Below are positions 28,830 to 39,188 of a stretch of 39,357 nt of DNA, in pieces. The stretch is from a virus, in the IMG/VR virus record IMGVR_UViG_3300046167_000350, positions 1 through 39,357 of that record; one strand, given 5' to 3'. The notes under the pieces were generated by a model, which made no database searches, was not told the DNA's origin, and saw only the letters and a program-made list of their open reading frames with translations. The stretch's first letter is position 1. Each line of letters starts with the position of its first letter. The position numbers and the translations under genes are program-made.

Positions 28830-29158
28830 AGATCATTCTCCTTAACAAAAATTCCATCAACCATTTTACCCTTGCGATCTTTGATGTCGGCCCATGCTAC
28901 TTCAAGGCAGTCTGTAATATGCCAATTGTTTCGCTCCATGATGTTGATCAACACCACCATGATATCGCCGATGTCATCTTTCAGATCTTTGCCCTTACAG
29001 ATGTTGTCAGACAATTCACCGACCTCTTGGATCAATTTCAAACACTGGTCTTTGTCAGTGCTTCCTTCAATCAAGTTACGATCACGATGCCACGTTTCAA
29101 TACGTGCAATCATTACATCTGTAATGCCTCGTGACTCACCATTCCAAGTGTCGTTCAT
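28826..29158 (-). CDS. MazG-like nucleotide pyrophosphohydrolase
   Basis: A 110-residue protein with the all-alpha NTP pyrophosphatase signature: QCLKLIQEVGELSDNI (E45 and E48, EVGE) and KDDIGDIMVVL (D61-D65), the two acidic motifs that bind magnesium. MazG-type enzymes hydrolyse (d)NTPs to NMPs, and many marine phages carry them. The substrate cannot be read from the sequence. It sits between thyX-region genes and overlaps both neighbours by 4 bases, fitting nucleotide metabolism. Confidence 0.8.
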   Translation of the reverse strand: MNDTWNGESRGITDVMIARIETWHRDRNLIEGSTDKDQCLKLIQEVGELSDNICKGKDLKDDIGDIMVVLINIMERNNWHITDCLEVAWADIKDRKGKMVDGIFVKENDL

Positions 29159-29937
29159 AATTTACCCTCTTTCTTAAGTTCTTCTCGAATTTTGGTTGCA
29201 CTGATAGAATGGATCGCATCATCAAACACTTCTTGTTCTATCTTGTAACCAACGTCACGACCGTACGTGATGTTCATTACGTTAGGTACGATTGCTATCT
29301 TAACACGACCAGCATACTCAATCAAACTGTTCGAAAGATTACTGACTACCTGTTCAGCAGTGTACGGGTTCTTATCGTCTTGAGGCATGTCACGTACCAT
29401 CAGATACACTTGGTTGTGCTTTGCCATTGCCCTATCGAACAATGCTTGGTGTCCATCATGCCATGGTTGGAATCGACCTAGCATCTGTGTTGTAGGTGCT
29501 TGATTGTCCCAGATGAACTTACGACCCAGTTTGTTTGCGATTTCTTTTGCTACTCGATCACCATCACGTTCAGTGACTCGATAGTGTGCGCCGTCTTCGG
29601 GTCGCTCAAATACTTTGTTGGTATCTTCGAATCGACCTTCGTCAATTGTATCAACAAAGATCTCGAAGTCAGCACCGAACTTCTTTCGGTCACGGTCGAA
29701 GGGCGCAACGAAGTCAGCAATTGCAAGTAAACCTTTTGCCTCTGCTTCTTTGCAGAGTCGTAGCATTCTTGCACTCTGCCGCGCACGACCTTCGTCGGAG
29801 AAGTCCCAGTCTCCTGCCTCTTCACGTACAACATCCGCATTGAACCATGCGGCATTGGGACCTAGATACTTCCTCAAACGACCTGCCAAATATGTCTTAC
29901 CACTACCCGGCAAACCAAATATTAAAACTCTACTCAC
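29155..29937 (-). CDS. P-loop kinase fused to an HxGH nucleotidyltransferase
   Basis: Two domains are visible. Residues 1-~115 are an APS-kinase-like P-loop domain: GLPGSGKT at 8-15, then DFSDEGRARQSARM and a late DTIDEGRFEDTNKVFERPE segment recalling the APS-kinase region. Residues ~150-255 form a cytidylyltransferase-type nucleotidyltransferase: LGRFQPWHDGHQ (HDGH at 160-163) and ISATKIREEL at 245. These are the HxGH and ISxTxIR motifs of NMN- and related adenylyl/cytidylyltransferases. The order is kinase first, unlike NadR (transferase first). It may act on a nucleotide or NAD-like substrate; this is inference. It overlaps the MazG-like gene by 4 bases. Confidence 0.8.
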   Translation of the reverse strand: MSRVLIFGLPGSGKTYLAGRLRKYLGPNAAWFNADVVREEAGDWDFSDEGRARQSARMLRLCKEAEAKGLLAIADFVAPFDRDRKKFGADFEIFVDTIDEGRFEDTNKVFERPEDGAHYRVTERDGDRVAKEIANKLGRKFIWDNQAPTTQMLGRFQPWHDGHQALFDRAMAKHNQVYLMVRDMPQDDKNPYTAEQVVSNLSNSLIEYAGRVKIAIVPNVMNITYGRDVGYKIEQEVFDDAIHSISATKIREELKKEGKL

Positions 29938-32845: not shown

Positions 32846-32897
32846 CGTGAATAATACACTTGGTGTATGATGTCGTACACTAGGTGTATTATTCACG
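32846..32897. repeat. 52-bp near-perfect palindrome
   Basis: Two 26-base arms centred between 32871 and 32872 form an inverted repeat. The outer 14 bases (CGTGAATAATACAC) match perfectly. The four inner mismatches are all transitions that allow G-U pairs in RNA on at least one strand. It lies just beyond the 188-aa gene stop and upstream of the promoter at 32811. Confidence 0.85.
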
Positions 32898-32898
32898 T

Positions 32899-32946
32899 AG
32901 TTTATTATGCGTACCAACTGTTAGTTTATTATGCGTACCAACTGTT
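32899..32946. repeat. 24-bp tandem duplication at the end of the 188-aa gene
   Basis: Two identical adjacent units (32899-32922 and 32923-32946), each containing TTATTATGCGTACC. On the minus strand one copy spells the gene end (NSWYA then TAA TAA), and the second repeats it after the stop. It looks like a recent slippage duplication. Confidence 0.9.
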
Positions 32947-33495
32947 GTAGAATTCTCGCTTACCGTCCCACTGGAAAGCACTGCTGTAACTGTTGATCTT
33001 GATACCGTACTCGGTGATTCGCTTGGTGATCGTCTCTTCACCAATGAAAGCATTGTGAACAGGAACCACGTTCTGCGCCATACCGTGTGAAACTTCAGTA
33101 CCCTCGACAGGACGACAAGCGATAGGGCGAAGAACAACGGTACCAGAACCTTTCTTCTCTACGACCTGAAACGCATCAACGTTGGTCTGCTCGTAACCCC
33201 AAGAAGAAACAAAGATATCGTCAACGATTACACTGTTACGTGCCATCGCGACTCGCTCTTTCTTCTCTGCGGCACGTTCTGCCTTGCGAATCTCTTTCTC
33301 AGCGAGGTTACGCAAGTAATCACAGCAGAACTCGAACATACGCTCGGCAGACCGAAAACTGTAGTTGAACTCAATCTTGTAACCCATACGGGCACGTTTG
33401 GTGTATCGCTTACACATCGCATAGGGTCGACCCTCATCGATGATCAACTCTAAACCACGCTCTGCGAAACCTTCTCTCAAACTTGCAAACTCCAT
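32929..33495 (-). CDS. Conserved phage protein (SSWGYEQTN motif), unknown function
   Basis: A 188-residue protein from the ATG giving MEFASLREGFAERGLELII; an AAGGA site lies 7 bases before this ATG and too close to the earlier one. A Lys/Glu/Arg helix (EKEIRKAERAAEKKERVAM) divides a folded N-terminal half from a C-terminal domain with VDDIFVSSWGYEQTNVDAFQ and VVEKKGSGTVVLRPIA. That domain recurs in phage and plasmid genomes. The protein ends SFAxxx-like FYNSWYA at a duplicated 24-bp unit. The promoter at 33526 precedes it. Function unknown. Confidence 0.65.
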   Translation of the reverse strand: MEFASLREGFAERGLELIIDEGRPYAMCKRYTKRARMGYKIEFNYSFRSAERMFEFCCDYLRNLAEKEIRKAERAAEKKERVAMARNSVIVDDIFVSSWGYEQTNVDAFQVVEKKGSGTVVLRPIACRPVEGTEVSHGMAQNVVPVHNAFIGEETITKRITEYGIKINSYSSAFQWDGKREFYNSWYA

Positions 33496-33525
33496 AACCA
33501 TTCCTTATCATCAAATTACAGAGTA

Positions 33526-33612: not shown

Positions 33613-34251
33613 TTAGTACGGAAACTGGTAGTTATTTTTGAAGTCTGTGAGGTAGTCTGCGGGGAAACCGAGTGATTCCATGACGCGAAAACTGTGGGGA
33701 TTCTGCAACTGGTTGTGACAGTACTTCGTGTGATGCCGCATCTGTTCCTGCATAACCGAAGGTGTCTTCTCAGTGAAGTTAAGGGCGGTGAACCATCGAT
33801 CTAGATTCTTTGCACCCAGTTTAGCAAGTTTCTTTGCCTCGCTCTTGTCGGTGACATTACCTGCCGCAACCATTTCGTTCGAGAAGATCAGTAATGCCCA
33901 TAGTGGCAATTCGCGTTCCTTCTCAGGCATGAATCGAGCATCAACGGGCATCGATGCACAGGTAGGTGAGAGATCATGGAAGCAACCCGTGAGTTTTTTA
34001 GGACCACAGACCACATCAAACCCATAGATCGGCATGGGGTAATCACATCGAGAATATGCATTGACGTGCATCATCCAGATCTTCTTTGTTTCTCTCAGAT
34101 CGACAATGCTAATGTGACCCATGTCAAGTAGATCACTCTTGAAGAAAAAGTTATGGTGACCTTCGTGCCATTCCTTTGTCTCGTACTGCCATGCTTCGTT
34201 ATCGAACTTGTCGAATATTTTATCGCTCAATTCTATAAATGGATCCCACAT
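33613..34251 (-). CDS. pcyX: Ferredoxin-dependent bilin reductase, PcyX/PebS-like
   Basis: A 212-residue protein of the FDBR family (PcyA, PebA, PebS, PcyX). The core has HISIVDLRETKKIWMMHVNA, YSRCDYPMPIYGFDVVCGP (conserved Asp79) and KLTGCFHDLSP, then a helical C-terminal half ending GFPADYLTDFKNNYQF (D199, D203 near the position of a second catalytic Asp). These enzymes reduce biliverdin IX-alpha with electrons from ferredoxin. Phage PebS and PcyX make phycoerythrobilin by a four-electron reduction. It lies 4 bases after the heme oxygenase gene, giving a heme-to-bilin pathway. PcyX versus PebS cannot be settled by eye; PcyX is my preference. Confidence 0.85.
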   Translation of the reverse strand: MWDPFIELSDKIFDKFDNEAWQYETKEWHEGHHNFFFKSDLLDMGHISIVDLRETKKIWMMHVNAYSRCDYPMPIYGFDVVCGPKKLTGCFHDLSPTCASMPVDARFMPEKERELPLWALLIFSNEMVAAGNVTDKSEAKKLAKLGAKNLDRWFTALNFTEKTPSVMQEQMRHHTKYCHNQLQNPHSFRVMESLGFPADYLTDFKNNYQFPY

Positions 34252-34255
34252 AGTT

Positions 34256-34759
34256 TTACCCCAGTTGAATGAATATCAGTCTGTGCCAATCGAACCCGTT
34301 CTTGACTTCATTGACTTCGATATCGAGTTCTCGTATCGATTTGATCAAATCAGATCGATTGTTAAATTCGTACATCTTACCTTCGGTAGGCACATTCTTC
34401 TTGATCAGTTGTCCACCGAACATCATACCCATGTAGTTAAGGTAGATGTGGGCATTGATCTTGCGTTCGTCTTTCAGTGCAACGATGTGATTGACGTACT
34501 CATAGACTGCGCTAGGTGCTTCCTCGTCAATGTATCGTTTGTCCATGTGTTCGATGTCAGATACGATCAGTGGTGCTCGCTTTAGATCTTTGCGAGGGAG
34601 ACGCCATTCCATCTCCATTGCAAGGAAGATTAGATGTTGCACTTTAAGATACCGAGAGTAATCTCGATCAGTCAATTCACCTCGTGCCATCTTAATGGCA
34701 AAATCGGTCTGTTCGACCGCAGTGTGATGTGCTTGGGTCTGTTCTCTTATCGATTCCAT
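34256..34759 (-). CDS. ho1: Heme oxygenase
   Basis: A short (167-residue) heme oxygenase: MESIREQTQAHHTAVEQTDF places the axial His at position 12, aligned with the VHTxAE motif of HO-1. NYMGMMFGGQLIKKN (109-122) matches the distal-helix YLGDLSGGQ segment. The product is biliverdin, with CO and iron released. Typical HOs are about 200-250 residues, so this is compact, as in some phage HOs. It is transcribed immediately before pcyX and overlaps the wall-hydrolase frame by 13 bases, indicating one operon. Confidence 0.88.
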   Translation of the reverse strand: MESIREQTQAHHTAVEQTDFAIKMARGELTDRDYSRYLKVQHLIFLAMEMEWRLPRKDLKRAPLIVSDIEHMDKRYIDEEAPSAVYEYVNHIVALKDERKINAHIYLNYMGMMFGGQLIKKNVPTEGKMYEFNNRSDLIKSIRELDIEVNEVKNGFDWHRLIFIQLG

Positions 34760-35181
34760 CTGTAGAACTTATGACCTCCGATCATTCCAATCTCTTGCAT
34801 ACCTCTGTCGTTGACCCAGTTCGGTTCAATGTACGATGCGTGGTAGTGCGTGGAACCTTCTGTTATACCACGATATATATCATCTTCTAAAAAGTCGTAT
34901 GCGATTGTTCGTGCTTCTAACCATGCTTCTGTATCGTGAGGCGTGTCACTCAGTCCGTCACAGTACCAAGAGAACTGACACTGATTACGTACGGGCATTA
35001 GATTGCCTTTCCAGTTCTTCCTGATCACTGCTTGATGTACAACCTCACATACAGTAGAAGGGAAGCGACGATGGTTGACACGATTCATTACAACGTCTGC
35101 GACTGCGAACTTACCTGCAAACGTATCGCCTCGTGCTTCATGATATAGATTAAGAGCAAGGCAATCAACTGCTACCCAGTC
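34747..35181 (-). pseudogene. SleB-type cell-wall hydrolase domain, no start codon in frame
   Basis: The open frame after TAG at 35182-35184 encodes 144 residues containing the Hydrolase_2/SleB signature: CLALNLYHEARGDTFAGKFA with the catalytic Glu of HEARG, VADVVMNRVNHRRFPSTVC, and NQCQFSWYCDG. No ATG, GTG or TTG precedes HEARG in this frame. The first ATG (35088) would lose the catalytic Glu. The upstream frame in +1 offset (35165-35332) supplies a start and a membrane anchor. So the gene is split by a single-base frameshift (mutation, sequencing or assembly error, or programmed). The intact fused protein would be an anchored peptidoglycan hydrolase, probably for lysis or wall access. Confidence 0.75.
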
Positions 35182-35332
35182 CTACCTCGGGTTCAGTTTT
35201 CACAATCAATGGGACAGCAGGTAGTACAACTTCAGGTTCGATCACATTCGCATCACTTTCGAACGTTGTGAATGCAAGAAGACCTATTAGACAAACAACG
35301 AATGCAGTGACTGAGTAAATTAGATTTCTCAT
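35165..35332 (-). CDS. N-terminal anchor fragment of the wall hydrolase (55 aa)
   Basis: A frame from ATG at 35332, overlapping the upstream nuclease stop by 4 bases. It starts MRNLIYSVTAFVVCLIGLLA, a membrane segment or signal anchor, then a Pro/Val/Glu linker (EPEVVLPAVPLIVKTEPEV) and TGA at 35165. Seventeen bases before its stop, the +1 frame opens into the SleB domain. On its own it would be an anchor without an enzyme, which supports a frameshift. Confidence 0.65.
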   Translation of the reverse strand: MRNLIYSVTAFVVCLIGLLAFTTFESDANVIEPEVVLPAVPLIVKTEPEVGLGSS

Positions 35333-35994
35333 CGGTTTTGTCTCTCTTCGAAGAGGGAGATAGTATTTATCAATTTTTGCGTATGATCGTCACGCTTCTC
35401 AATAAAGATTTGCTCACCTTCGTCACCAGCAATTAGGGTGACAAGTTGTGTGATGGGCATGCCGGTTCTCTCTTCCCACATGATTGCATATGCCGCTTCT
35501 TGTGCAAAATAGTTTTCGACGAATGCTCGCTTCTTCCACTTTCGACTGGTCTTGAAGTCGATGATGGAGATCTTGCCGTCAAACTCAGCAACACAATCGA
35601 CGCGACCAGCAAGACGTAGATGATCCGAGTAAAGAGGTAACTCTTGTCCATAGACTACTCCAATACGTTCGTCTAACGTTTTCTTGACTGAGAGGAACGT
35701 TTCTAGTACGTCTGGCGTGACACCTTCACGATAGTTCTCTTCGTTGTTGATGTACTTCTCAATGATCGTGTGTACAGAGGTGCCACGCCGAGATGCTTGT
35801 GTCGAGATCTTGTTTGCTACTTCAGGACCAACACGTCTGCGCCATGCTTGAATGGACTTCTCGCTGAGAATCGAGAGTACAGTCGTGACAGACGGATACA
35901 ATTCACCAGTTGCGGTGATGTACTTTCGCTTGCCATCTTCGTTCTTAGTCTTGAGATCGCTGTATCCGAGATCAATCGGTTCGTGCTTGAACAT
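35329..35994 (-). CDS. PD-(D/E)XK exonuclease (MGME1/RecB-like)
   Basis: A 221-residue protein. The nuclease core is in the middle and late part: LAGRVDCVAEFDGKISIIDF followed by KTSRKWKK gives the D...DxK-type motif, and ENYFAQEAAYAIMWEE gives the helical QxxxY-type motif. Earlier YPSVTTVLSIL and RRGTSVHTIIEKYI resemble the family's N-terminal region. It is like mitochondrial MGME1 and other Cas4/RecB nucleases common in marine T4-like phages. It processes DNA ends, probably in recombination or replication. Confidence 0.8.
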   Translation of the reverse strand: MFKHEPIDLGYSDLKTKNEDGKRKYITATGELYPSVTTVLSILSEKSIQAWRRRVGPEVANKISTQASRRGTSVHTIIEKYINNEENYREGVTPDVLETFLSVKKTLDERIGVVYGQELPLYSDHLRLAGRVDCVAEFDGKISIIDFKTSRKWKKRAFVENYFAQEAAYAIMWEERTGMPITQLVTLIAGDEGEQIFIEKRDDHTQKLINTISLFEERQNR

Positions 35995-36853
35995 TTTTCT
36001 TCACCAGTTTCATACCATAATTATTGTAACCGCTTGGCATTTCAAAGTCATCGTTGAACTGTAGTCTCTGTGGAAATACAGAGTAGTCTACATGATGATG
36101 CCATCGACCGTATCGCTTCGTGACACGGACATGCTCGGGATGCAGTTGCTTCAGTACCATAGTCTTGTCGTACGTAGTGTCCGAATAGTCCATGCTGTCT
36201 GCATTGTACACTTCTTCAGTGTTGCCACCCTTGACGGTCTGTGTCGCACTCTTACCTTGGAGATAAGCATTGAATAAGAGTGTGCAGTCGCCATTCTTAA
36301 GCACTCGCAAACTCAAATCAATGTCTTCATTATACTTGGATCTCCAACGAATGTCAAGTGAATTATCGATTAATATGGTACTCATGATATGAGTATTGGT
36401 GATGAAGGCAGGATACTTCTGATCAGATGCACAAAAGAATCTGTACCTAGGTCCTGCAAGTCGTATGTTCTTATATCGATCAACGAAGTCTTCCATGATA
36501 CGGAAGTATGTCGCAGTCTTGACACGATATCGAGCATTGAGGTGCAAGCGGTAGAAGTCAGATATGTTATCATCTAGCAACCAGTGTCGCTTCGCACCTT
36601 TCTCGATAGAGTCTTCCCAACACGCATTGCGAGCAGGACCAGAACCCATGCCATGATTAGAAAATGGCAGTTCGAGCAAAGTCGCACTGAGATCCATTTC
36701 TTGTATTGCTTTAGTATACGGTACTACGTCTTGTGGTTCGACCGCAATCGTATGTTCTACACCCATCTCGGTAAGAGATTTAGATGTGTACATACTGTCA
36801 CTGCGGTTTTTTGATATGACGTATACAGGATACTTATTCGTCAATCCATGCAT
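35972..36853 (-). CDS. TET-associated-type glycosyltransferase (GT-A fold)
   Basis: A 293-residue protein from ATG at 36853; a TTG start eight codons earlier is possible, but an anti-ribosome-site-like CCTCCC precedes it. It begins MHGLTNKYPVYVISKNRSDS and has GMGSGPARNACWEDSIEKGA, WLLDDNISDFYRL (DDN in the DxD position), and WRSKYNEDIDLSLRVLKNGD. These resemble the phage TAGT family, which glycosylates hydroxymethylated DNA bases in TET/JBP-type hypermodification operons. I infer this role from motifs. No TET enzyme is in the window. It overlaps the next gene by 23 bases and the ParB-type gene by 20. Confidence 0.75.
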   Translation of the reverse strand: MHGLTNKYPVYVISKNRSDSMYTSKSLTEMGVEHTIAVEPQDVVPYTKAIQEMDLSATLLELPFSNHGMGSGPARNACWEDSIEKGAKRHWLLDDNISDFYRLHLNARYRVKTATYFRIMEDFVDRYKNIRLAGPRYRFFCASDQKYPAFITNTHIMSTILIDNSLDIRWRSKYNEDIDLSLRVLKNGDCTLLFNAYLQGKSATQTVKGGNTEEVYNADSMDYSDTTYDKTMVLKQLHPEHVRVTKRYGRWHHHVDYSVFPQRLQFNDDFEMPSGYNNYGMKLVKKNVQARTD

Positions 36854-37157
36854 ATAATGAGTTCGCTTCTCTATCAAAGGGAGGATACCAAATAGTCTTG
36901 GTCTTGTCAGTCATGGTGCACTTAACTAGTTCGCGAAATGCTTCGAAGTCTTCTTTCGTCTTAAAGCAGACGTTAAGTTTCTTGTAAGGTTTTGCTTCTT
37001 CTTGCTCGAAGTGTGGCATACCTTTCCAATGATCTTGCCAACGTGTGCTGTTTTCCACATCGTCATCACCCATCAATGCTTCGAGTGGGTTAGTCTCATC
37101 TTGAGGTTCGGGTACTAGTACTTCTAGACAATCATCAAAATCTGGTTTCTTAGGCAT
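36834..37157 (-). CDS. ParB-C-terminal-type domain protein associated with DNA modification
   Basis: A 107-residue protein: an acidic, disordered N-terminus (MPKKPDFDDCLEVLVPEPQ), then WKGMPHFEQEEAKPYKKLNV and FKTKEDFEAFRELVKC, ending TMTDKTKTIWYPPF and YAWIDE. This WxxMPxF...Q, kTKxIWYP block recalls the C-terminal domain found with ParB-like proteins in phage DNA-modification operons. It lacks the ParB N-terminus. The TAGT gene starts within its 3' end (20-base overlap), which strengthens a shared function. Exact role unknown. Confidence 0.6.
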   Translation of the reverse strand: MPKKPDFDDCLEVLVPEPQDETNPLEALMGDDDVENSTRWQDHWKGMPHFEQEEAKPYKKLNVCFKTKEDFEAFRELVKCTMTDKTKTIWYPPFDREANSLYAWIDE

Positions 37158-37884
37158 TCTTTAATTGCTTTCGCTGTTTAGGTGTAAGTGGACCAGGTCG
37201 CAGTGGTACTTCCATACCACGACCATCGCTGATATCGCTCTTATCAGCACGTTGTTGTGCCGAAGTTAGATTATCATTATACACTTTTATCTCTACGTTG
37301 TCAAGTTTTGGTATCTTCAATCCATCGTGATTGTGGTGCAGGACGAACTTGGTATCGGAAAACTCACGCATGATATCACGCCAGATAGGGCGCCAGTTAT
37401 TGAGGAGTCGATAGTTGTTAGCACCCGATCGATCACTAGACAACAATAGATCTGTGATGCTTCTCATGTTGAAGTCAAATAGAGTATCGAATCCATACAT
37501 GTGAACTTCGTTTGCTTTCATCTTGGCACACGCATAGTGCACTGCCATATGACCACAGTTGAAGTTGGTTGCATTACCAGCATACTCGGGTACGTGTGTA
37601 TAGAACCCCTTGACGTTCTGGGCGTACTTCAGATAGAAGTCGCTTCGCTCATACATCCACATGCGCGGGCGTGTACCAAGAATCCACGGGTACATGTCAA
37701 GTTTTAGGTGTCCCTCAGTTAATGCCATCATCATCTTAAAGTCAACCATACACGTTCCATAAACATCTTTTGCAGGAACGTCAAATGGTGGCATGTTACA
37801 CAGCAGTAGTTTACCCTTACGTTCTTCACGTTGGTAGTAGACTGCTTTATCACCATTTCCTAATACATGAACTACATTACTCAT
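37150..37884 (-). CDS. Rossmann-like protein of the glycosyltransferase cluster, unknown function
   Basis: A 244-residue protein with a Gly-rich N-terminal motif (HVLGNGDKAVYYQREERKG) and CMVDFKMMMALTEGH, and a middle segment HMYGFDTLFDFNMRSITDLL that resembles DUF115/MAF-like or sialyltransferase-like Rossmann proteins. The C-terminus is Lys/Gln-rich (LTPKQRKQLKNA). No safe family call. It overlaps the ParB-type gene by 8 bases and the GT8-like gene by 8, so it is part of the cluster. It may handle a sugar nucleotide. Confidence 0.55.
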   Translation of the reverse strand: MSNVVHVLGNGDKAVYYQREERKGKLLLCNMPPFDVPAKDVYGTCMVDFKMMMALTEGHLKLDMYPWILGTRPRMWMYERSDFYLKYAQNVKGFYTHVPEYAGNATNFNCGHMAVHYACAKMKANEVHMYGFDTLFDFNMRSITDLLLSSDRSGANNYRLLNNWRPIWRDIMREFSDTKFVLHHNHDGLKIPKLDNVEIKVYNDNLTSAQQRADKSDISDGRGMEVPLRPGPLTPKQRKQLKNA

Positions 37885-38530
37885 TATACATTATCTTCCT
37901 AATCTGATCCTTACCCTTCTTACCGGTCCAGTGCATGATCAACTTATCTTTCGAATCTTGGTTGTCATGAGTCACCTGAAGTCTTAACCAGTTGTATATA
38001 TTAGGTACGTCACTGATGTACCTCATCCGCGTTAGAGCATCACCACGTATCATGCTGTGCAATACTTCTTGATCTCCCTGCACAGGATTCTCTCGACATG
38101 CTTCCATCCAGTCAAGTAGAATCGGAGGCGTCGATCGTACGCCGACCAGTCCACTGTTATGCCACTTCTCTTTCATACGAAGCGTCCATGGTTTGTCTTC
38201 GACCATTGCTAACTTGCCCTGCTCGATGTAGTTAAACGCACCACTGATATCGCCAAGGATATGCATGTCAGTATCTAACCAGACTTTCTCTCGTGCAGGT
38301 GCTTTAAGTAGGGCAACAGGTTTGTAGAACCAACCGCCTGTTCTCTGCTTAGGCACTTCATAGGTGTCATCGAAATCACTGATACGCAACCATTCTTTGA
38401 ACTCGGGTGTGACACCAAAGTCACAGAAAAGTATAGGCATCTTGTTATGCTTCTTAAAATTCTTAAGAAACCACGGTACCATCCACTCGGTGTTACTATC
38501 ACACCCTGTAATAAATGCTTGATCAATCAT
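37877..38530 (-). CDS. Glycosyltransferase, GT8-like
   Basis: A 217-residue protein from ATG at 38530, which overlaps the upstream stop by 8 bases like its neighbours. It contains DQAFITGCDSNTEWMVPWFL, WFYKPVALLKAP, KVWLDTDMHILGDISGAF (a DxD metal motif DTD), WHNSGLVGVRS, GDQEVLHSM and MHWTGKKGKDQI. This is the order of GT8 motifs. It transfers a sugar from a nucleotide sugar; the acceptor is unknown. Confidence 0.75.
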   Translation of the reverse strand: MIDQAFITGCDSNTEWMVPWFLKNFKKHNKMPILFCDFGVTPEFKEWLRISDFDDTYEVPKQRTGGWFYKPVALLKAPAREKVWLDTDMHILGDISGAFNYIEQGKLAMVEDKPWTLRMKEKWHNSGLVGVRSTPPILLDWMEACRENPVQGDQEVLHSMIRGDALTRMRYISDVPNIYNWLRLQVTHDNQDSKDKLIMHWTGKKGKDQIRKIMYNE

Positions 38531-39188
38531 GTTTGAATAGTCGATATTGCGTCTTGTCTTTGCGCCAAGAATGCTTTGCGACACAACCACCTTCGTTCTG
38601 TATCGTGCTGAATGTATCCTGTGCTACACACGTCCATGGATAGTACTCTTGTAACCAATCGAAGTTGTTGTAACTCAGGAAGAGATCTGTAGGTGCGGCG
38701 TCTGTGCTCGCTCGATCAATCATTGTCTTAGCGGCAATGGGTTTGAGACGATACGCATGTGCGCCCGGGAAGTAGTCTTTACTTGTTAGCGGTATGATAC
38801 CAAGTGTTGTGGGTGTTCGATATGTTCCGTAACTAGGTGCGCCTAGATTGATGCAACCTGTGTAAGGCATAAACTCGGGTATGGGTGCTACGACCTTTGC
38901 ATCATGCTCGAAGATGATGATCTCTCGGTTCAGACGAATACACTCTTTCCACAACGAACGATGTGAGAGGAATGCACTCATACAGTTTGTCTGTCTTGAC
39001 GTGACTTCACGAAAGAATGTCTCGGGTATACCTTCACGTTGAAAAATGGACTTGGGGTCATCTTTGGGAGTGAATGCTGGCCACTTCTCGATGGTCAGAC
39101 CATTCTTTTTACCTGATGCGATACACTTGTCCGCCGCTTCAACGGACTCAGGTAAGTCCATAATCGTAATAACAAATGCTTTAATCAT
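38523..39188 (-). CDS. Glycosyltransferase, GT25-like
   Basis: A 221-residue protein: MIKAFVITIMDLPESVEAAD, CMSAFLSHRSLWKECIRLNR, EIIIFEHDAKV, INLGAPSYGTYR and YFPGAHAYRLKPIAAKTMID. The LSHxxLW...IIxEHDA and GAHAYxLxPxAAK pattern is that of GT25/LPS-type transferases (the canonical EDD is EHD here). It starts where a second GT25-like gene stops, with a 4-base overlap. Acceptor unknown; DNA, virion or cell-envelope glycans are possible. Confidence 0.75.
   Translation of the reverse strand: MIKAFVITIMDLPESVEAADKCIASGKKNGLTIEKWPAFTPKDDPKSIFQREGIPETFFREVTSRQTNCMSAFLSHRSLWKECIRLNREIIIFEHDAKVVAPIPEFMPYTGCINLGAPSYGTYRTPTTLGIIPLTSKDYFPGAHAYRLKPIAAKTMIDRASTDAAPTDLFLSYNNFDWLQEYYPWTCVAQDTFSTIQNEGGCVAKHSWRKDKTQYRLFKHD

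Follow-up and report, generated by a model that had tools for sequence, protein, structure and literature searches.

The 39,357-base virus record IMGVR_UViG_3300046167_000350 (positions 1 to 39,357; GC 44%), here called the window, carries a pair of minus-strand genes for a heme oxygenase (HO) and a ferredoxin-dependent bilin reductase (FDBR) that probably form a phage auxiliary pathway from heme through biliverdin to a phycobilin, as a distinct S-type branch of the hemO–FDBR cassettes. The HO gene (34256..34759, minus strand) encodes a 167-aa protein of an Asp-less type, assigned from Pfam, AlphaFold, Foldseek and motif alignments. The FDBR gene (33613..34251, minus strand) encodes a 212-aa PcyX-like protein, assigned from Pfam, a match to the 5owg structure, a tree and a residue table. 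The initial annotation had described an HO and a bilin reductase that are adjacent, co-directional and 4 bases apart, and both open reading frames are confirmed, with positions 34252..34255 separating the HO stop from the FDBR start on the minus strand. In relatives of the window the two genes overlap by 11–26 nt where the window has its 4-nt gap, a spacing consistent with co-translation from one operon.

The window HO scores 52.8 bits against the Pfam Heme_oxygenase profile (PF01126; cut-off 23). Its AlphaFold model (pLDDT 93.6, pTM 0.90) has the all-helical HO fold and matches the HmuO, HO-1 and HO-2 structures in Foldseek with a TM of about 0.82, and the proximal, heme-ligating His is kept as His12. 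The distal Asp140 and Arg136, which make up the usual proton relay, are missing. In the distal motif YLNYMGMMFGG, Asp140 is replaced by Met112, Arg136 by Asn108 and Ser142 by Phe114. The functional heme pocket that the earlier annotation presupposed is thus borne out for the fold and the proximal ligand, but its distal side has changed.

These changes are shared by the window's relatives. All HO partners of the S-type reductases lack Asp140 (Met, Phe, Leu, Val or Trp takes its place) and have Asn at the Arg136 position, and Asp140, Arg136 and Ser142 are replaced in every HO of the window's clade. The HO partners of PcyX proper, on the other hand, all keep the Asp (RHMGDLSGG or close forms). 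In the HO tree, 29 Asp-less phage HOs form one clade (100/100), so that loss of the Asp is a single change. Invariant among the Asp-less HOs are His12, Glu16, Tyr106, the GG motif and Arg143; the Tyr and Arg positions correspond to those that hold the heme propionates in HO-1. No bacterial donor of the Asp-less HO turned up when 385 alphaproteobacterial and 398 Pseudomonadota genomes were searched with profiles. Each of the two sets yielded two HO-like proteins, three of the four being canonical (DLxGG) and the fourth of another type. The human HO-1 mutant Asp140His has lowered activity, and soybean HO-1 (GmHO-1) is active without Arg136 and Asp140 by means of another hydrogen-bond network (PMC7948506). 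Because the soybean enzyme works without both residues, loss of the Asp is no proof of inactivity in the phage HO; by analogy it points instead to a change of mechanism.

The reductase belongs to the FDBR family by its profile score (Pfam Fe_bilin_red, PF05996, 35.3 bits; cut-off 31) and by its fold. The AlphaFold model (pLDDT 88.8, pTM 0.87) matches PcyA and PcyX structures in Foldseek with a TM of about 0.8, with further matches to PebS, PebB and HY2. Among characterised FDBRs it is closest to PcyX: the nearest solved relative is PcyX_EBK42635 (5owg; E = 1e-34, where the best PcyA gives 3e-5), and profile comparison gives E = 6e-75 for PcyX vs 1e-19 for PcyA. In a tree with known FDBRs the protein clusters among the bilin reductases, as the initial annotation required. 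Its description there as PcyX/PebS-like holds for the first name; membership in PebS was rejected, that enzyme being a distant, structural match with about 12% identity. In the 77-row FDBR tree the window falls into a clade of 30 rows (99/99), whose sister is a 41-row clade containing EBK42635 and the pelagiphage Mosig protein, and it therefore lies outside PcyX proper. The window's own branch is long (0.67–0.89). A larger tree, built like our other large trees by quick search, groups the S-type with PcyX (98) and sets the E-type apart, leaving the order among the PcyX lines open.

The S-type is named for a single active-site position. We classed the phage reductases by the residue at the site of PcyX Asp55 (numbered by count along the 5owg chain) and PcyA Glu76: S-type enzymes have Ser, D-type enzymes have Asp (PcyX), and E-type enzymes have Glu with the full PcyA triad (HIE, LH, GFD). 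The window has Ser48 here, as does every S-type FDBR in which the site is covered, so that it has neither the PcyX-specific Asp55 nor the complete PcyA triad of Glu76, His88 and Asp105. The other two triad residues are present as His62 and Asp79, a pair invariant in all three classes. Asp55 is, as Ledermann and colleagues reportedly found in 2018, not itself catalytic in PcyX.

Close relatives of the window FDBR were found on 22 viral contigs, with an HO directly upstream in all that extend that far, and a wider IMG/VR scan recovered 582 contigs with PcyX relatives. The upstream HO gene usually overlaps the FDBR gene in loci extending that far, and adjacency of the two genes is far beyond chance. 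A profile scan for the Asp-less HO matched 100 viral contigs, and a detectable FDBR of S-type or E-type lies behind the HO in 79 of the 80 retained. The only such locus without a detectable FDBR within 2.5 kb is on a large phage contig (L172; IMGVR_UViG_3300045999_010033).

Among about 140 distinct loci, the Asp-less HO is paired with an S-type reductase in 33 and with an E-type reductase in 60, and the Asp-containing HO with D-type PcyX in 37 and with an E-type reductase in one or two; crossings between the D and S combinations do not occur. Of about 64 E-type phage cassettes, 60 use the Asp-less HO. Purifying selection on both genes is strong: dN/dS is about 0.05–0.2, as calculated from close pairs among the sister contigs, the window itself being too distant.

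In one pair of contigs the HO is conserved but the reductase behind it has been exchanged, along with a small neighbour. L160 and L019 have 90.9% DNA identity along a stretch of 3,021 nt that ends with the HO gene. Past this point their reductases are completely different, L160 having an E-type reductase and L019 an S-type reductase followed by a DUF454 gene, and identity returns at 88% from position 6055 of L019. S- and E-partnered HOs are also intermixed in the HO tree, in conflict with the FDBR tree, which forces at least three changes. Because the reductase is nearly always kept, and is exchanged between classes behind a constant HO, the product under selection is probably the reduced bilin itself and not just iron or CO.

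In the pathway that we favor, the HO would open host heme to give biliverdin IXα, iron and CO, working through a distal pocket in which the usual Asp/Arg relay is absent. The FDBR and a host ferredoxin would then reduce biliverdin to a phycobilin, most likely phycoerythrobilin (PEB), the S-type enzyme using the Asp–His pair together with Ser at the site of the PcyX Asp and the PcyA Glu. PEB is the most likely product because the S-type groups with PcyX. Published activities are in line with both steps: PcyX makes PEB, and the HO of a freshwater phage (vHemO) makes biliverdin IXα (PMC11480375). A host ferredoxin must be assumed, since a search of 32 related contigs found no ferredoxin gene. Neither an ALA synthase gene (alaS; 0 of 44 contigs, 5 S-type and 39 E-type-associated) nor a bilin-binding acceptor protein was identified.

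The conversion on to PEB proposed in the initial annotation is supported by the PcyX-like reductase, but it is not secured given Ser48 in place of Asp55 and an HO without Asp140 and Arg136. The pathway may work and yield another product, if Ser at the Asp55/Glu76 site shifts regiospecificity toward phycocyanobilin, phytochromobilin or 15,16-dihydrobiliverdin; we regard this as possible, though the less favored reading. Against it, the S-type is nested with the PEB-making PcyX enzymes and separate from the PcyA-like phage enzymes of the E-type (98), and PcyX Asp55 is reportedly not itself catalytic. In its favor, Ser occupies the site, and PcyX Asp55 is absent, in all S-type FDBRs in which the site is covered. 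The phage enzyme CB_2 PcyA/X also lacks Asp55 and makes phycocyanobilin (PCB), for which this absence has been offered as the likely reason (PMC11480375), and pre-PcyAs lacking the Glu yield other bilins (PMC10151467; PMC13193486).

It is unlikely that release of iron and/or CO, or depletion of heme, is what is selected and that the bilin is a by-product of biliverdin removal. Iron supply has been discussed as a role of such cassettes (PMC11480375), and no gene for a bilin acceptor was seen. However, only one distinct Asp-less HO cassette, that of L172, is without a detectable FDBR, and it is difficult to see why reductases of different predicted regiospecificity would be swapped behind the same HO were the product irrelevant. 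A bolder extension of the favored pathway, to which we give only a small chance, is one with an exchangeable end product. In this scheme, one Asp-less HO, with a proton relay unlike those of animal, cyanobacterial and plant HOs, would feed reductases of different classes; the S-type would make a bilin, or use a biliverdin isomer, undescribed for PcyX and PcyA, and so tune a bilin-dependent process in non-photosynthetic hosts.

It is more doubtful still that the Asp-less HO is a heme-binding or heme-delivering protein rather than an oxygenase, with the FDBR using biliverdin made by the host. The replacement of Asp140, Arg136 and Ser142 throughout the window's clade would fit such a role, and a non-standard HO is known from malaria parasites, which require this divergent protein. 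The proximal His and the presumed propionate-binding Tyr and Arg positions are nevertheless invariant, and 60 of about 64 E-type cassettes share this kind of HO. Plant HOs are active without the same residues (PMC7948506), and the freshwater CB_2 vHemO, which may be of either HO kind, is active as well (PMC11480375).

The phage itself, of a marine type and Kyanoviridae-like, is T4-like, as first annotated: the window contains homologues of the baseplate, neck and other T4 genes gp6, gp25, gp53, gp48, gp4, gp2 and gp32 and of a late co-activator. In the gp6 tree it joins phage C48C1 (100/99), outside the marine cyanophages and the pelagiphage/Methylophilales group. The annotated open reading frames of the window include no photosynthesis genes, and psbA is found in none of 32 related contigs (fragments, in which absence is no proof) and in neither C48C1 nor Mosig. 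The reading of the contig as lacking cyanobacterial markers therefore stands, and by gp6 the window is not a marine cyanophage. In published accounts, PcyX is missing from cyanophages. That the cassette is an ordinary cyanophage one supporting phycobilisome pigments in a cyanobacterial host is very improbable and was rejected on the gp6 tree and the missing psbA: in that tree the Synechococcus elongatus phage BUCT-ZZ01 is weakly placed (83/88) with the window and C48C1, and the window gp32 is 52–60% identical to cyanophage gp32, but the window stands with C48C1 apart from the marine cyanophage clade and its FDBR is not of the PebS, PebA or cyanobacterial PcyA type.

A cyanobacterial host is thus unlikely. 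The record of C48C1 names no host and we found no paper on this phage, and the tRNA calls, one ordinary and a few odd, are uninformative. pmoC was found in none of 39 E-type contigs, a search in which the control was also silent. D-type phage hemO and pcyX genes are present on contigs of four metagenome-assembled genomes (L026, L027, L028 and L029, assigned to Pirellulales, Halobacteroidaceae, Neomarinimicrobiota and Rickettsiales). We rejected these as host evidence, as the contigs are probably binned phage DNA; L028, the one examined in detail, is phage-like, and its hemO and pcyX are not adjacent.

Upstream of the cassette, the 3' end of a gene for a SleB-like cell-wall hydrolase (Hydrolase_2; 34747..35088, minus strand; Pfam PF07486, 58.9 bits) overlaps the HO start by 13 nt and is probably co-transcribed with the cassette. 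The hydrolase (34747–35332) looks split, with a signal-peptide-like start (35332 down to a TGA) and a body in different frames and no start codon 5' of the conserved region in the body, which suggests a frameshift or an assembly error. A PD-(D/E)XK exonuclease gene (35329..35994, minus strand) is a conserved upstream neighbor in sister contigs. The TET-associated glycosyltransferase (TAGT) gene beyond it (35972..36877, minus strand; Pfam PF20691, 130 bits) is present in a subset of them and has relatives in Tenacibaculum, Vibrio and Aeromonas phages. It lies in a glycosyltransferase cluster (35972–39188) that also includes a GT25-like enzyme, hinting at DNA hypermodification.

Downstream, a 190-aa gene without assigned function (phrog_37844; 32929..33501, minus strand) occupies the place that a DUF454 (YbaN-like) membrane protein has in many sister cassettes (L009, L011–L017, L019–L021, L023, L048–L064 in part, L088, L091, L226 and L228). 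There the DUF454 gene stands directly or shortly 3' of the FDBR gene, often overlapping it, and is possibly a third gene of the operon. The family is seldom seen in phage records (5 of 50,697), the window has no member of it, and we found no literature linking it to heme oxygenase. Three minus-strand sites just 3' of the cassette look like sigma-70 promoters (32816–32788, 12/12; 33554–33526, 11/12; 32448–32420, 11/12) and resemble T4-like phage early promoters, the second, a strong site, standing before the 190-aa gene. A long inverted repeat (32848–32895; 20 pairs, loop of 8) lies between small genes in the same region. Farther away, the product of 29155–29937 combines an APS-kinase/AAA-like N-terminal part with a weakly cytidylyltransferase-like C-terminal part and is possibly a bifunctional nucleotide-cofactor enzyme.

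As a two-gene arrangement the cassette is not new. Cassettes of hemO and pcyA/X, with or without alaS, have been published from marine and freshwater phages of presumed non-cyanobacterial, non-photosynthetic hosts, and one freshwater hemO and FDBR pair is active, giving biliverdin IXα and then PCB (Wegner et al. 2024, PMC11480375). On inspection, the cultured pelagiphage Mosig EXVC030M (MT647606) carries the same adjacent pair. Like the marine contigs, Mosig is T4-like, has the two genes adjacent and co-directional and lacks psbA, and the window FDBR is 36–38% identical to the Mosig protein and PcyX_EBK42635 (5owg), with the same Asp–His pair. In contrast to the window, with YLNYMGMMFGG and Ser48, Mosig has a canonical HO (RHMGDLSGGQ) and an Asp55 FDBR; it belongs to another T4-like branch, and the GC content of its stretch is 34% vs 44%. 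The CB_2 cassette likewise combines an HO with an FDBR without Asp55, carried by a phage whose host is presumed not to be cyanobacterial, but its PCB-forming FDBR lies between PcyX and PcyA (PMC11480375), whereas the window S-type groups with PcyX. We infer that the CB_2 enzyme is probably of the E-type class. CB_2 also carries alaS, a gene that the search of 5 S-type and 39 E-type-associated contigs did not find.

Cyanophages such as P-SSM2 also pair an HO (ho1) with a single FDBR, PebS, that gives phycoerythrobilin, but PebS is of the PebA lineage (PMC10151467), and the cyanophage HOs in our HO tree have the canonical motif YTRYLGDLSGG. The plant HOs GmHO-1 and HY1 are natural, active HOs without Arg136 and Asp140 (PMC7948506). 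They differ from the phage proteins in having Ala149/His150 and a shifted proximal His, whereas the phage Asp-less HOs have the proximal His in its usual position, Asn in place of the Arg, and Met, Phe, Leu or Ile in place of the Asp. What is new, judged from sequence, is the kind of cassette, a sister lineage to PcyX proper with both active sites altered. The S-type lineage, whose proteins are known from contigs only, is apparently undescribed in the literature compared.

The role of these cassettes has been called enigmatic, and the literature leaves open for what reason phages that infect non-photosynthetic bacteria produce phycobilins (PMC11480375). The exchange of reductases is a natural experiment on this question and suggests that selection acts on precisely which reduced bilin is made, which argues against simple release of iron or CO. 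That the S and D classes are never crossed predicts either that the two active sites changed in step or that the cassettes arose separately. The Asp-less HO clade would also offer a test case for oxygen activation without the Asp/Arg relay.
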